This document shows positions 4,658-30,002 of a stretch of 35,332 nt of DNA, piece by piece. How positions within the stretch are numbered: position 1 is the stretch's first letter; each line of letters starts with the position of its first letter. The stretch comes from Candidatus Cloacimonadota bacterium (lineage in GTDB: Bacteria; Cloacimonadota; Cloacimonadia; Cloacimonadales; Cloacimonadaceae): assembly GCA_028706475.1 (NCBI GenBank), contig JAQWBI010000020.1, positions 1-35,332 of the forward strand, given 5' to 3'. The notes below the pieces were generated by a model. That model was given only the letters and a program-made list of their open reading frames with translations, did no database searches and had not been told where the DNA came from. A program made the translations under genes and the position numbers.

Positions 4658-4833
4658 TTACTTTTTTTACGGCTCACTCTATGTTCTTGCTTTTATTCTT
4701 ATTCATAACCTTGTTTTTCAGTCCCCGAAATATGTCAATGCTTTTCTTCTGCACACCTGAAAGATATCAGACATTATTACATCAGACTTAAACCCAAGTA
4801 ATACACAGAGTTCACCCATACTACCTCTGTTTA

Positions 4834-4931
4834 AATAAGTTAAGTGGTGGCTTGGACTTCGTTGCATAGAATCCACCCCAGATATTGAAGTCCATTTGAC
4901 CATATCACGTATAGGTAAACAATGAGATACA
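4834..4931 (+). repeat. Dispersed intergenic element E, copy 1 (TGGACTTC inverted repeat)
   Basis: About 98 bp that aligns along its length with 26895-26996 read on the other strand. Shared landmarks in order are AATAAGTTAAG, TGGACTTC, AATCCAC, TATTGAAGTCCAT, TGACCATAT, ATAGGT and ACAAT(G/A)AGATACA. The arms TGGACTTC (4853-4860) and GAAGTCCA (4887-4894) form a perfect 8-bp inverted repeat with a 26-nt spacer. I see no coding potential. Function unknown. The rest of the 690-bp gap around it (4658-5347) holds the element at 5066-5178 and a hairpin at 5312-5340, and otherwise nothing recognisable. Confidence 0.75.
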
Positions 4932-5065
4932 AAATATATAATGTTACCCTACCTGACGGTGTTAAAGTGAGGGGTTCCGTACTGGAGGATACCTTTCTAC
5001 AATTTTCGGCGCTGCGGCGATCACCGGTACGAAAGACACCGTTCAGCCTATGTTTTATTCTATTT

Positions 5066-5178
5066 TCCTCCTCTGGGTTATCTAGAGATGAACCTGATAT
5101 AGTCGGGTTATCATCGAGTGAGCATAGGATGATAACGCCTTTATATCTACTTCGGCACTGCTTTACATAAAGAGACAT
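5066..5178 (+). repeat. Nested-hairpin repeat, copy A
   Basis: Aligns without gaps to the right half of the repeat at 13666-13868, from TCCTCCTCTGG through GAACCTGATAT, ATCATCGAGTGAG, GGATGATA and ATATC to CACTGC. The inner stem is strongest here: GTTATCATC and GATGATAAC can pair perfectly over 9 bp around a 12-nt loop. The outer stem is weaker than in copies B and C. I could not confirm the left 90 bp present in copies B and C. Confidence 0.75.
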
Positions 5179-13443: not shown

Positions 13444-13665
13444 TTATGTTTTTTTGTTAAGCATTCTCTCATAAGTGACATCATTTTTACCGGGCTGTAT
13501 AAGTAAAGCTAAATCTTCCGGGTAGGGGATACTGATTCGCTGACACACACACTGAATGTCCATTGGCTTGTTGAGTGTTCTGGCATCTCTACGCAGTTTG
13601 CTGATTACTCTGATCGCTGATGCTACTTTCTCATTGTAATTTGAGCTGAAAGAAGGCTCCAGTGC
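13444..13665 (-). pseudogene. Truncated small gene, 5' end replaced by a 203-bp repeat
   Basis: The minus strand carries an open frame of about 74 codons that reads like a real protein: it includes NEKVASAIRVISKLRRDART, the pair CVC and PYPEDLALLIQPGK, and ends ERMLNKKT. The frame continues about 24 codons into the adjacent repeat until a stop at 13740, but there is no ATG, GTG or TTG before the internal methionine codons. The repeat boundary falls exactly where the protein-like sequence begins, so I infer that the repeat removed the 5' end. It ends 14 bp before mmdA, so it may once have been co-transcribed. I do not recognise the family. Confidence 0.4.
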
Positions 13666-13868
13666 CTCGTCAAGACACGTATGCCGTATGTTACTGGTCT
13701 GCCAAACTCTAATTTTGCAGATACTTCTACCGATGATTCAAAACCTTCGTTCCTCCTCTGGTTTATCTATACTTGAACCTGATATTATCGGGTAATCATC
13801 GAGTGAGTACAGGATGATAGCGGCTTGATATCAGCTTCATCACTGCATCGAACAAAGGGGAAGAGGAG
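13666..13868 (+). repeat. Nested-hairpin repeat, copy B (203 bp)
   Basis: Starts CTCGTCAAGACACG and ends AAGAGGAG. It aligns over its full 203 bp with 19143-19345 on the opposite strand, which has the same length. The right half also matches 5066-5178 and, more weakly, 27160-27255. The core holds an outer stem TGAACCTGATAT/ATATCAGCTTCA (13774-13785 with 13828-13839, one mismatch), two 9-nt internal loops and an inner stem ATCATC/GATGAT (13795-13800 with 13813-13818) around a 12-nt loop. Terminal CTCCTCT/AGAGGAG could also pair. No intact reading frame is present. Confidence 0.85.
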
Positions 13869-13956
13869 AAAAACTCAAAAGAGTCCTTCGGTAGCTGTGG
13901 CAATTTCCCAGCTTGATCTGACACCAGCAAATCTGACAAGAAACCGGGAAAAAGAG

Positions 13957-19142: not shown

Positions 19143-19345
19143 CTCCTCTTTCCCTTTGTTCTATCCAGTGTTGAAGCTGATATCAAGGTGTTATTATCCT
19201 GTACTCACCCGATGATAACCCGATGATATCAGGTTCAAGTATAGATAATCCCAGGAGGAATGAAGCTTCTGAATCATCGGCAGAAGTATCTATCTTTTCG
19301 AAGTTCGGCAGTCCAGTAGCAAAACGACATTCGTGCCTTAACGAG
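19143..19345 (-). repeat. Nested-hairpin repeat, copy C (203 bp)
   Basis: Read on the minus strand it begins CTCGTTAAGGCACG three bases after the copper ATPase stop codon and ends AAAGAGGAG. It matches copy B (13666-13868) along the full 203 bp. Outer stem TTGAA-C-CTGATAT/ATATCAG-C-TTCAA has 12 pairs with one C-C mismatch; inner stem GTTATCATC/GATAATAAC has one mismatch; internal loops are again 9 nt each. The rest of the gap to the beta-barrel gene (18946-19142) shows nothing recognisable. The repeat may act as the 3' end of the copA message, as no other terminator is visible. Confidence 0.85.
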
Positions 19346-19348
19346 TTG

Positions 19349-21556
19349 TTAGAACTTTCTCCGCAAAAGGTTGGCATTGGATACCACCGTTACCGAGCTG
19401 AGCGCCATTGCAATCTCCGCGATTACTGGATGCAATACCCCGAAAGCCGCCAATGGAATGGCTATCAGATTGTAGAAAAACGCCCAAAACAGGTTTTGAC
19501 GGATCTTGGCAAAGGTCTGCACTGAAAGCTTGTGCGCCAAAGGTATGAGGTTTAGATCTCCTCGTAAGATCGTGATATCCGCCGCTTCGATGGCAATATC
19601 GGTACCCATGCCCATGGCGATCCCGATGTCTGCTTGCTTCAGAGCCGGAGCGTCGTTGATACCGTCTCCTACCATTGCCACTACGCTGCCACCGGCCTGC
19701 AGTTCTTTCACCTTCCCTGCTTTATCAGCAGGCAAAACATTGGCCAGCACATCTGTAATGCCGCATTTATGCGCTATCGCCCGGGCTGTATCCAGGTTGT
19801 CGCCGCTCATCATAATCGGCTTTATCCCTTTCTGCAAAAGGCTTTGTACCACACTGCGTGCTTCCTCCCGAATGGTGTCTGCCACATAAAAGCGAGCCAA
19901 TAGCTTGGCATCGGTTGCCAGATAGATGTTGCCGGCATAAGCGAGATCAGCATCCGGCTCCGGTTCACTCTCGATACCGATTTCCCGCATCCAATTGAGA
20001 CTGCCCAGATAGTAATTTATGCCTCCTATATCTGCAGATACTCCACGACCGGGACTGGCGTTAAAATTCTGAATGGGCTTCAGACTCAAGTTTTGTGCTT
20101 GTGCTGCATTCTTGATGGCAAGCGCCAGAGGATGTTCGCTGGAGTTTTCCAGAGCATAAGCCAGGCCAAGAACTTGTTCTTCATCACTTTCGAATACGTC
20201 TGTTTTGATCAGTTCGGGTTTACCGTGAGTGAGGGTGCCAGTTTTGTCCAGAAGCACCGTATCCACATCCTTCATACGCTGCAAAGCCTCACCGCTGCGA
20301 ATCAGGATGCCGTTATTTGCCCCAATGCCGGAGCCCACCATCAAGGCGGTAGGCGTGGCCAGACCCAGGGCGCAAGGACAGGCAATCACCAGAGTAGCAA
20401 TCGTGGCCATCAAAGCTGCCGCAATTCCATCTGCAGGAAGTGAAAGGGGTAATACTGTGTGCAGAATGGCTGCCACACTTCCCATGAAGCCAGGAAAAAT
20501 GATCCAAGCAACAAAAACAAGCAGTGACAGCGCCAGGATCACAGGCACAAAGATCGCCGTGATGCGGTCTGCCAAAAGCTGGATAGGCACTTTGGAGTGT
20601 TGAGCATCGCTCACCATCTTAATCACCTGAGCCAGAAAAGTCTCCTTGCCTACTTTGGTAGCCCTGGCAAGGAAGTATCCATCTAAATTGATCGTAGCAC
20701 CCAAAACGGCATCGCCTACAGTGCATGTAACCGGCATGGACTCACCGGTGGCAATAGAAATATCCAAAGAACTGGTACCGCTGGTGATAATGCCGTCTGT
20801 AGGAACCTTGGCTCCAGGTTTCACCACAAAGATATCTCCGGTTTTGATACGGTGTACGGGAACTTCCTGCTCGCAATCATCAATCATCAGAATGGCCGTC
20901 TTGGCACCAAGTGAGATCAGTTTGCGTATGGCTTCGGAGGCTTTACCCCTGGCTCTGCTTTCCAGATATCGTCCCGTGAGGTGGAAGGAGATGATCATGG
21001 CGGCAATACCTGCAAAATCGTGTGCAGAGATGTTCGTGATCACCAGTGACAACGGACTTACCATTAGAGATGAGAGAGTACCCAAAGCGATGAGCACGTC
21101 CATGTTTGCAGCGCGCCCCTTCAGGGATTTGAACGCAGAGACATACACGTGACGAGCGGGAAAAAGAACTGCCGTGAGGGATAAAGCAAACATAATCCAG
21201 GCATCGGCATTGTGCCCAAAGACCTTGCCGCCAAAGAACATATGCGGTATCATCAATACCAACACCAAGGCCGTGAGTATCCAACTGAATATCATCCGCC
21301 GTGAAGCCATGTGCATCATCCGGATATGCTCATCCTCGTCCCGATACACACTATCCCGGATGCTGAAACCCAGATCGGTGATACTCTTGAAAATGGCTTC
21401 CTGCTTTACCTTGCGCTCGTCATATTCCACCTGAGCTTCTTCCAAAGCGAGGTTCACATGAGCCGAACTTACTCCACCCAGAGCTTTCAAACTCTTCTCC
21501 ACATTCGCACTGCATGAAGCACAATGCATACCGTCGATGCCGATTTGTAACTGCAT
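19349..21556 (-). CDS. copA: Copper-translocating P-type ATPase (P1B-1)
   Basis: 735 residues, complete. One N-terminal heavy-metal-binding domain (1-67) carries GMHCASC with C12 and C15. Catalytic motifs: TGES (270-273), the ion-binding CPC (393-395), phosphorylation site D437 in DKTGT, SEHP (473-476) and GDGINDAP (630-637). Transmembrane residues Y695/N696 and M717 with S720/S721 fit the Cu(I) subgroup. It exports Cu(I) from the cytoplasm using ATP. An AAAGGA ribosome binding site precedes the ATG. No CopZ chaperone or CueR/CsoR-type regulator gene is next to it. The 258-bp gap on its 5' side (21557-21815) contains an imperfect inverted repeat (CGATAATCTGG/CCAGATAATCG, 21632-21673) and nothing else I recognise. 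Confidence 0.95.
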   Translation of the reverse strand: MQLQIGIDGMHCASCSANVEKSLKALGGVSSAHVNLALEEAQVEYDERKVKQEAIFKSITDLGFSIRDSVYRDEDEHIRMMHMASRRMIFSWILTALVLVLMIPHMFFGGKVFGHNADAWIMFALSLTAVLFPARHVYVSAFKSLKGRAANMDVLIALGTLSSLMVSPLSLVITNISAHDFAGIAAMIISFHLTGRYLESRARGKASEAIRKLISLGAKTAILMIDDCEQEVPVHRIKTGDIFVVKPGAKVPTDGIITSGTSSLDISIATGESMPVTCTVGDAVLGATINLDGYFLARATKVGKETFLAQVIKMVSDAQHSKVPIQLLADRITAIFVPVILALSLLVFVAWIIFPGFMGSVAAILHTVLPLSLPADGIAAALMATIATLVIACPCALGLATPTALMVGSGIGANNGILIRSGEALQRMKDVDTVLLDKTGTLTHGKPELIKTDVFESDEEQVLGLAYALENSSEHPLALAIKNAAQAQNLSLKPIQNFNASPGRGVSADIGGINYYLGSLNWMREIGIESEPEPDADLAYAGNIYLATDAKLLARFYVADTIREEARSVVQSLLQKGIKPIMMSGDNLDTARAIAHKCGITDVLANVLPADKAGKVKELQAGGSVVAMVGDGINDAPALKQADIGIAMGMGTDIAIEAADITILRGDLNLIPLAHKLSVQTFAKIRQNLFWAFFYNLIAIPLAAFGVLHPVIAEIAMALSSVTVVSNANLLRRKF

Positions 21557-26812: not shown

Positions 26813-26894
26813 GCGCCTGCGTAGGAACCACACCATCTATTACGCAGATACAAGTGGGACTAATCTTGGATAATGCAAAGTTTATTTGACCTTA

Positions 26895-26996
26895 TGTATC
26901 TTATTGTATACCTATATGTTATATGGTCATATGGACTTCAATAGCAGGAGTGGATTTTATACATTGCCCGAAGTCCACGCCGCCCCTTAACTTATT
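26895..26996 (-). repeat. Dispersed intergenic element E, copy 2
   Basis: The minus strand matches 4834-4931 with the same order of landmarks (AATAAGTTAAG, TGGACTTC, AATCCAC, TATTGAAGTCCAT, TGACCATAT, ATAGGT, AATAAGATACA). Perfect arms TGGACTTC/GAAGTCCA lie at 26932-26939 and 26970-26977 with a 30-nt spacer. The surrounding gene-free stretch (26813-27344) also holds a 9-bp inverted repeat, TCCATTTGA (27054-27062) with TCAAATGGA (27098-27106), and the element at 27160-27255. Confidence 0.75.
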
Positions 26997-27159
26997 TTGC
27001 CATAAGATAGACAGCATAGGTGTTTTGAGCTGTGTGCCTTATTAGAGATAAAGTCCATTTGAGATTGCAACTCTATGTTTAGCAATTCATTTCGCGGTCA
27101 AATGGAATCATGGACGACGTAAACGCAGCTCCTCATTCAGCTTTACCCCTTTACTTTCA

Positions 27160-27255
27160 GGAGTGGTGAAGCAGATATCATCGAGTGATCATCGAGTGGT
27201 CACTGCTTTATAACAGCTTTATATCAGCTTCAGTACAGCTTGAACATCAGGGGAG
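27160..27255 (+). repeat. Nested-hairpin repeat, diverged copy D
   Basis: The 66-bp core (27167-27232) aligns without gaps to copy B (13774-13839). Outer stem TGAAGCAGATAT/ATATCAGCTTCA keeps 11 of 12 pairs although its left arm differs from copy B at two positions; one of these changes (C to G) restores the pair opposite C and the other (T to A) creates a new mismatch. The inner stem is lost (ATCATC against CTTTAT). The left 90 bp of copies B and C are not recognisable here. Confidence 0.6.
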
Positions 27256-27344
27256 AACCTCGCTGCAATGCATTTTATAGCCTATGAATCTGGCACTTCT
27301 GTACGTCAGATAACTCTCTCTCATAAAGCGTTATGCGTGTATAT

Positions 27345-27918: not shown

Positions 27919-29538
27919 TTACTTCATGAATGGATAATCGAAATTAAGTGCTGGAACGAAGTTTTCCTTGATGGATCGAGCGGAAATCCAGCGTTGCAGG
28001 TTCAAGGCAGAACCCGCTTTATCGTTAGTTCCGGATGATCTTCCGCCGCCAAAAGGCTGTTGACCTACAACAGCACCGGTTGGCTTGTCGTTGATGTAGA
28101 AATTACCTGCACTATGTCGCAGGGCATTATAAGCAGTACAGATTGCGGTGCGATCCTGAGAGAAGATCGAACCTGTAAGTCCATAAACAGAGGTTTTATC
28201 ACACAGTTCCAATGTCTTCTCAAAATCCTCATCCTGATATACATACACGGTCAACACCGGGCCGAATATTTCTTCCTGCATGGTTTTGAACAGTGGATTT
28301 TCGGCTTTGATGATGGTAGGCTCTACAAAGTAGCCCACACTATCGTCGCAGTTACCACCGCGGATCACGCTTGCATCATTGGCATTTTTTGAGTAGTCGA
28401 TGTAACTTTTTATGTTATCGAAGCTTGCTTTATCGATCACAGCATTAATCAAATTGCCAAACTCGCGCACATCACCCATTTTTACCTGATCCAGCATTTC
28501 ATTCATGGAGCTCAGCCATTCATCATAGATGGATTGTGGAATGTAGAGCCGGGAAGCGGCACTGCACTTCTGCCCTTGATACTCAAAGGCTCCTCGCAGT
28601 GAGGCCACGGCAAGGGCTTGAACATCGGCAGAAGGATGCGCAAAGATGAAATCCTTTCCTCCCGTTTCGCCCACTATTCTGGGATATGACTTGTACAGGT
28701 GAATATTGTTTGCTGTTGTTTTCCATAGATGGTTAAACACCTTTGTACTGCCTGTGAAATGAATCCCAGCAAGATGCGGAGAGTGCATCACGTGCTGTCC
28801 GATGGTTTCACCTGAGCCGGGGATGAAGTTTATCACACCATCCGGCAATCCTGCTTCTTTGAGAATCTTCATTATATAGTATCCACTGTAAACCGCTGCG
28901 CCGGAGGGTTTCCACACTACTGTGTTACCCATCAAAGCAGGGGCAGTGGGCAGATTTCCAGCAATAGCCGTGAAATTGAACGGAGTAAGGGCAAAGATGA
29001 AGCCTTCCAGGGCTCTGTATGAAGAAAAGTTCCATTCCCCTTTGGGCGAGATTAAGGGCTGCTGTTCATATATCTTCTGTGCAAAATAGGCATTGAAACG
29101 CCAGAAATCTATCAGTTCACAAGACGAATCGATTTCCGCTTGGTGCGCATTCTTGCTTTGCCCCAGCATGGTTGCTGCATTCAGGAGAAAGCGGTATTTT
29201 GTTGAGAGTAATTCTGCTGCTTTCAAGAAGATCGCAGAACGGTGATAAAAGGGCATATCTTCCCAGTCTTTGTGGGCTTTCACTGCCGCATCGATGGCGC
29301 ACAAGATTTCTTTTTCATCGGCCTTGTGATAGGTGGCTAGTTTGTGCTGATGGTCATGAGGGCAGATGCAACTCCCTGTGGCTCCACCATATACCTCTTT
29401 TCCCCCGATGATTGCGGGGATTTCGATATGCTTGTTATACAAGTCTTGCAGAGTGTTCTGAAGCTGCTGACGTTGAGGAGAACCAGGCTGATAGGTCAAC
29501 ACTGGTTCATTTTTGGGTACGGGTACGCTAAAAAACAT
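27919..29538 (-). CDS. pruA: 1-pyrroline-5-carboxylate dehydrogenase
   Basis: 539 residues, an aldehyde dehydrogenase of the P5CDH branch (length like the stand-alone enzyme related to animal ALDH4A1, not a PutA fusion). Catalytic C325 lies in GQKCSAASRLYIP, the general base E291 in GETGGKDFIF, the oxyanion N188 in TPFNFTAIAGN, and the C-terminal SAGNFYINDKPTGAVVGQQP is typical of P5CDH. It oxidises glutamate semialdehyde/P5C to glutamate with NAD+, the second step of proline (and ornithine/arginine) breakdown. No proline dehydrogenase gene is adjacent. AAAAGGAGATAAC gives a strong ribosome binding site. Single gene with terminator. Confidence 0.95.
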   Translation of the reverse strand: MFFSVPVPKNEPVLTYQPGSPQRQQLQNTLQDLYNKHIEIPAIIGGKEVYGGATGSCICPHDHQHKLATYHKADEKEILCAIDAAVKAHKDWEDMPFYHRSAIFLKAAELLSTKYRFLLNAATMLGQSKNAHQAEIDSSCELIDFWRFNAYFAQKIYEQQPLISPKGEWNFSSYRALEGFIFALTPFNFTAIAGNLPTAPALMGNTVVWKPSGAAVYSGYYIMKILKEAGLPDGVINFIPGSGETIGQHVMHSPHLAGIHFTGSTKVFNHLWKTTANNIHLYKSYPRIVGETGGKDFIFAHPSADVQALAVASLRGAFEYQGQKCSAASRLYIPQSIYDEWLSSMNEMLDQVKMGDVREFGNLINAVIDKASFDNIKSYIDYSKNANDASVIRGGNCDDSVGYFVEPTIIKAENPLFKTMQEEIFGPVLTVYVYQDEDFEKTLELCDKTSVYGLTGSIFSQDRTAICTAYNALRHSAGNFYINDKPTGAVVGQQPFGGGRSSGTNDKAGSALNLQRWISARSIKENFVPALNFDYPFMK

Positions 29539-29584: not shown

Positions 29585-29635
29585 TCAGGGCATACAATTC
29601 CTATGTCCGTATCTCCTTTTCACACTGGAAGGCAT
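29585..29635 (-). other. Possible short upstream ORF in the pruA leader
   Basis: A 16-codon minus-strand frame (MPSSVKRRYGHRNCMP, then TGA) ends 46 nt before the pruA ATG, with GGAA seven bases before its ATG. A second in-frame ATG with AGGA five bases upstream gives the two-codon peptide Met-Pro-stop. The sequence TGAAAAGGAGATA occurs both inside this frame and as the pruA ribosome binding site. Coding is not demonstrated. Confidence 0.25.
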
Positions 29636-30002
29636 ATCTGTTTCCGGATACACCCTATCGGCGTACAGCCTTGCCCTAAACGGGGGTTAGGTGTGCACGC
29701 TCGGGGACGCTGCCAACTTCTTATTCTAAGTGTTTTTCGTCAAGGAGATAAACTAAATAATTTTTAACATGGTTGCACTTGTATGTGTATTTCCCATCCC
29801 GGTAAGTAATTATAGGTGCCAATATAGTGGAAGGACATTGGTAAGAGTGAACGTTACGCTTCGCTTCACTGTTGGAACAGCCTTCGGCCTGTTTAACCAC
29901 CCCACAAAAACGCTTCGCATTTCCTGGTGACCCGGCAATCCTCAATACTTGATAATCTGTGTGCTATTTACCGGTATGGCTCAAGCATTGCAATTGTCAG
30001 GT
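29636..30002. other. Gene-free region between pruA leader and phnC-like gene
   Basis: No convincing gene. It contains two ACGCTTCGC motifs (about 29856 and 29910) and a small hairpin-prone AACAGCCTTCGGCCTGTT between them, plus an imperfect CCTAA/TTAGG hairpin around 29672-29690. A 74-codon minus-strand frame runs through these structures and is probably not a gene. It also contains no permease gene, which matters for the PhnC/PhnD pair. Confidence 0.4.

Follow-up and report, generated by a model that had tools for sequence, protein, structure and literature searches.

The repeated hairpin of this window is best read, at a probability of roughly 70%, as a lineage-restricted, non-autonomous palindromic core that was captured by an IS630-type MITE, giving two nested kinds of mobile DNA. 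The window is the whole analyzed stretch of 35,332 nucleotides, contig C20 of a 2.06-Mb genome in 90 contigs, whose proteins suggest an affiliation with Cloacimonadota. The core family appears to be mostly ordinary repeated mobile DNA, because the palindrome is dispersed at at least 127 sites and two of the four copies in the window lie inside a MITE with IS630 ends. The initial annotation had described these four copies (A to D) as one family of like elements. All four are present, and their common core aligns without gaps across 66 bp, with identities of 81% (A-B), 89% (B-C), 77% (A-C) and 79% (C-D). However, copies B and C belong to one longer element, here called MITE1, whereas the setting of A and D is different. 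Copy A (5066-5178, + strand) is not part of MITE1; a second repeat, MITE2, has a partial copy (4833-4934, - strand) some 130 bp away. Copy D (27152-27256, + strand), a solo core of the D type, lies about 110 bp from another MITE2 copy (26880-27043, + strand).

Abundance and distribution of the core

The proposal that the family is dispersed held to a far greater extent than four copies would indicate. The 19-base left-arm motif ATCGGGTTATCATCGAGTG, allowing up to 3 mismatches, occurs at 127 sites in the 2.06-Mb genome (60 on the + strand and 67 on the - strand), compared to 0 sites genome-wide for the reversed-motif control. In the same kind of genome-wide pattern count the motif is exact in 43 copies. 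This amounts to about one site per 16 kb, so the four in the window are a mild excess, and a 251-bp query around copy B returned 41 matches in the genome. We read 66 distinct core copies, the remainder of the 127 being known by pattern count only. Sorting by flank signature assigned 27 of the 66 to the MITE1 type and placed 39, including A and D, outside MITE1. The claim that all copies are intergenic applies to the copies read, which fall between genes as judged by rough ORF calls, with one possible overlap at L088. Many cores are situated no more than a few hundred bases from the end of a contig (for example C42, C52, C63 and C78), as if the assembly broke at nearby repeats.

Related cores were found in only one of 11 congeners, G003, which is also the sole one among 59 relatives. 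The exact core motif had no match in IMG/VR or in a genome collection covering 84,980 species, in searches that may lack entries for the host genome itself and would not detect diverged versions. No orthologous core site shared across species was seen, and a literature search found no account of repeats of this kind from the phylum. For the solo core, neither a target-site duplication nor an exact empty site was resolved, because sequence conservation is low at its outer ends and congeners have diverged too far between genes. At one solo core (L122), an exact empty site was not obtained, as synteny with the closest congeners does not extend to the upstream gene. No transposase linked to the solo core was found.

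MITE1 and its IS630 parent

On the evidence of their ends and flanks, copies B and C are non-autonomous MITEs of the IS630 type. Copy B (13659-13927, + strand) consists of 261 bp (13663-13923) with no transposase ORF, is bounded by the imperfect terminal inverted repeats TGCCTCGTCAAG and TGTCAGATCAAG, and reads as lying between CCAG duplications at 13659-13662 and 13924-13927. Its palindromic core, of the B type, occupies the middle of the element (13751-13868, + strand). Copy C (19143-19352, - strand) has lost one end; the remaining one is at TTAG (19349-19352), overlapping the stop codon of a P-type-ATPase-like ORF (19349-21556, - strand), and its core spans 19143-19251 (- strand). B and C had been taken for units of exactly 203 bp, but this figure is the extent of their similarity, B being longer and C cut at one end.

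When loci were aligned together with their flanks, MITE1 measured about 260-285 bp. Its inverted ends, CTAGTGTCATGTCAAG... and CTAGTGACTCGTCAAGG..., are both present on about 20 copies, and the hairpin core lies at the center. One locus, L062, is a 127-bp MITE1 that does not carry a core, although it gives no clean insertion point, since neighboring sequence is missing too. CTAG stands at both ends of many copies, and matching variants occur in copy B (CCAG/CCAG) and L038 (GTAG/GTAG), while a good part of the copies have mismatched flanks. The target duplication is therefore read from a minority of copies, because many have mutated flanks. Copy B is missing from the orthologous gap, between the same flanking genes, in five congeners (G005, G003, G009, G011 and G008), whose intergenic DNA is too diverged to place the exact junction.

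The statement that no named family matches the repeat remains valid for the core. For MITE1, however, a parent is clear: the IS630 family, which is Tc1/mariner-like. A Pfam search of the host genome for DDE_3, the IS630-type transposase family, found none; the genus has one, in the close congener G005. There it belongs to a 1,209-bp element (L266, 1367-2575) with ends CTAGTGTCATGTCAAGCTTG and CTAGTGTCTTGTCAA, and the MITE1 end is identical to CTAGTGTCATGTCAAGCTTG at 20 of 20 bases. The ORFs of this element match HTH_32/HTH_29, DDE_3 and NCBIfam transpos_IS630, the transposase being split across two overlapping frames. A DNA search with the IS of the congener detected a relic in the host (G000:C74:456-972) that is 85% identical to the G005 element and lacks the catalytic part and both ends. 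An intact IS630 was not found in the host assembly, which is incomplete (96.8%), and a search of the host for an IS with MITE1 ends gave just MITE1 copies, halves and chance-like matches.

Similar ends, with up to 3 mismatches each, flank 61 of 80 relatives of the G005 transposase in other species, both bacteria and archaea. Several have matching variant 4-bp flanks (CTAC/CTAC, GTAG/GTAG and ATAG/ATAG), which suggests a 4-bp duplication. IS630 prefers TA within CTAG, according to the work of Tenzen and Ohtsubo (1991) as cited in PMC2170065. The same article (PMC2170065) describes a target duplication of TA only for IS630 and ISY100, in contrast to the apparent 4 bp here. The target duplication of MITE1 would be 2 or 4 bp, and the flanks suggest 4 bp. 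The wider IS630 subgroup (L266 and loci L293-L372), which has CTAGTGTCATGTCAA ends, targets CTAG-like sites and apparently duplicates 4 bp, extends over many bacterial and archaeal phyla. The MITE family of this lineage thereby gains a parent, the IS630 subgroup of bacteria and archaea whose ends are TGTCATGTCAA and whose target is CTAG-like.

What was observed directly for MITE1 comprises its ends, a full IS in a congener that matches them, flanks resembling CTAG, the host relic and the absence of copy B from the orthologous gap. As to its movement, an IS630 transposase acting in trans on ends in which CTAG adjoins TGTCATGTCAAG may have moved MITE1 by cut-and-paste, and insertion would have been into CTAG-like sites with a short duplication.

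Anatomy of the core and alternative readings

The solo core has a consensus of about 110-120 bp. Its strongest regularity is a rhythm of 11 bp, present in each arm: self-match is 0.50 at lag 11 and 0.43 at lag 22, compared to a mean of 0.25 over lags 2-30, and the cores of G003 reach 0.53 at lag 11. The right-arm units carry GCTT at constant phase and the left-arm units are ATCATCGGGTT and ATCATCGAGTG. Such an 11-base-pair rhythm is unusual. The internal loops, described earlier as symmetrical and of 9 nt, span 4 + 4 columns for the majority of copies in alignment A1. Most copies have conserved mismatches there (T-T, C-C, G-G and G-G), whereas a few (L067 and L234) have these loops fully paired. 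In these two the paired sequence differs, which would fit copying of one arm onto the other. A short tandem motif, ACGCAGATnACGCAGAT, adjoins several solo cores, for example at L158.

The initial annotation also offered a structured RNA or a transcript 3' end. The palindromic form favors this reading, and copies C and D do fold better as RNA than their shuffles (z of -4.1 and -2.9), but the folds of A and B are weak (z of -1.5 and -2.0). DNA folding of single copies gained modestly over shuffles (z of -1.0 to -2.5). Among 46 aligned copies the palindrome pairs at 78% of cells, which equals the shuffle value; cells changed on both sides number 31 versus 25.2 +/- 4.6 in shuffles, and the covariation score is 0.082 versus 0.079. 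With covariation no higher than in shuffles, the data do not support a structured RNA. RNAalifold on the same 46 copies returned a weak alternative pairing that tracks two subfamilies. The changes in copy D, which had been thought to keep pairing, do retain pairs, but they represent a subfamily difference. An Rfam scan of the window gave no match to the core and only tRNAs and a Moco riboswitch. From rough, mechanical ORF calls, the gene context of cores is 27 tandem, 13 divergent and 9 convergent, versus a rough background of 36, 18 and 11. There is thus no enrichment downstream of genes, copy B itself standing between divergent genes, and a terminator role was rejected on this unbiased context. 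Taken as a whole, an RNA or mRNA 3'-end hairpin is very improbable.

Movement of the core as a REP-like element, in single-stranded form, by a resident REP-associated tyrosine transposase (RAYT) is improbable too, though less so. The host has one RAYT gene (C46:297-554, NCBIfam REP_Tyr_transpos) and so does G003, the sole congener with cores, and in abundance, palindromy and intergenic position the core resembles REPs. However, the hairpin beside the host gene is a different one, CGTGCCTCTGGCACG, and no core accompanies the gene; this led us to reject RAYT as the core mover. Other congeners have Y1 transposases yet lack cores. The core lacks both marks of a REP, which are a tagged unit of 20-40 bp and a position flanking its RAYT gene: it measures about 110 bp, and no GTAG or CGTC tag was found at either end of its consensus. 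The suggestion of a MITE-like or REP-like element was right in kind, B and C being IS630-type MITEs and the core a dispersed palindrome. The RAYT gene at L202 (189-839, - strand) has its own flanking hairpins, CGTGCCTCTGGCACG, and hairpins like these were seen at a dozen sites among the stretches read.

We give about the same low weight to the idea that the core is a binding-site array for a host DNA-binding protein involved in the nucleoid or supercoiling, and is retained for its benefit. Inverted, 11-bp-phased units in both species that bear the core and the exactness of the left-arm motif in 43 copies agree with it, but the core is limited to one species and one congener, shares no orthologous site that we saw, prefers no gene context and has been captured by a MITE. 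With the RAYT gene flanked by CGTGCCTCTGGCACG rather than by cores, and with gene contexts unbiased, we favor a lineage-restricted, non-autonomous palindrome that is read as DNA and was captured by MITE1.

The abundance of the core, its contexts (alone, inside MITE1 and beside MITE2), its restriction to a lineage and its 11-bp phasing were observed directly. A palindrome of roughly 110 bp, with 11-bp-phased units opposed on its two arms, would have spread to more than 100 sites; it was presumably captured at the center of MITE1, which then may have copied it further. The solo core may be, or may have been, mobile by means of a putative enzyme that reads phased DNA repeats, and the hairpin would be a by-product of the inverted arrangement rather than a selected RNA fold. 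It is conceivable, but doubtful, that the core represents a new type of transposition or protein-binding site, in which helically phased 11-bp units in inverted arms are read as DNA by a putative dedicated protein that would have spread the core to more than 100 sites and allowed it to ride inside an unrelated MITE.

Comparison with known repeats and neighboring features

RUP of Streptococcus pneumoniae is an IS630-family MITE of 107 bp with ends like those of IS630-Spn1 (PMC3049150). Like RUP, MITE1 is short, non-autonomous, intergenic and present in many copies with IS630 terminal repeats. Unlike RUP, it is about 260-280 bp long and has an unrelated palindrome at its center, and its flanks suggest a 4-bp duplication with a CTAG preference. 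ERIC, RPE and YPAL are dispersed, lineage-restricted imperfect palindromes of 100-170 bp whose mover is unknown or lost (PMC2229807). The core resembles them in general description, but differs in its 11-bp-phased units and in its occurrence inside another MITE. REPs (20-40 bp with GTAG or CGTC tags) and REPINs, associated with RAYT, are likewise abundant intergenic palindromes (PMC3733652, PMC3116915), but in this genome the hairpin beside the RAYT gene is another one. In the present case a dispersed palindrome is seen riding inside another mobile element. The movers of such palindromes are mostly unknown, and the 11-bp phasing provides a tangible starting point in the search for a protein that reads them.

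MITE2 is a second dispersed family, with a full consensus of about 205 bp and inverted ends ACTCGGATAATGCGATTGGAGTTCA and AACCCGAATAATGCACGGAGTTCA (26 distinct stretches read). It abuts MITE1 sequence at an identical junction in several loci, and from this constancy it seems that the chimera was itself copied. Elsewhere in the window, a molybdenum cofactor riboswitch (Rfam RF01055) at 29597-29718 (- strand) lies 5' of an ORF (27919-29538, - strand) that resembles aldehyde dehydrogenase.
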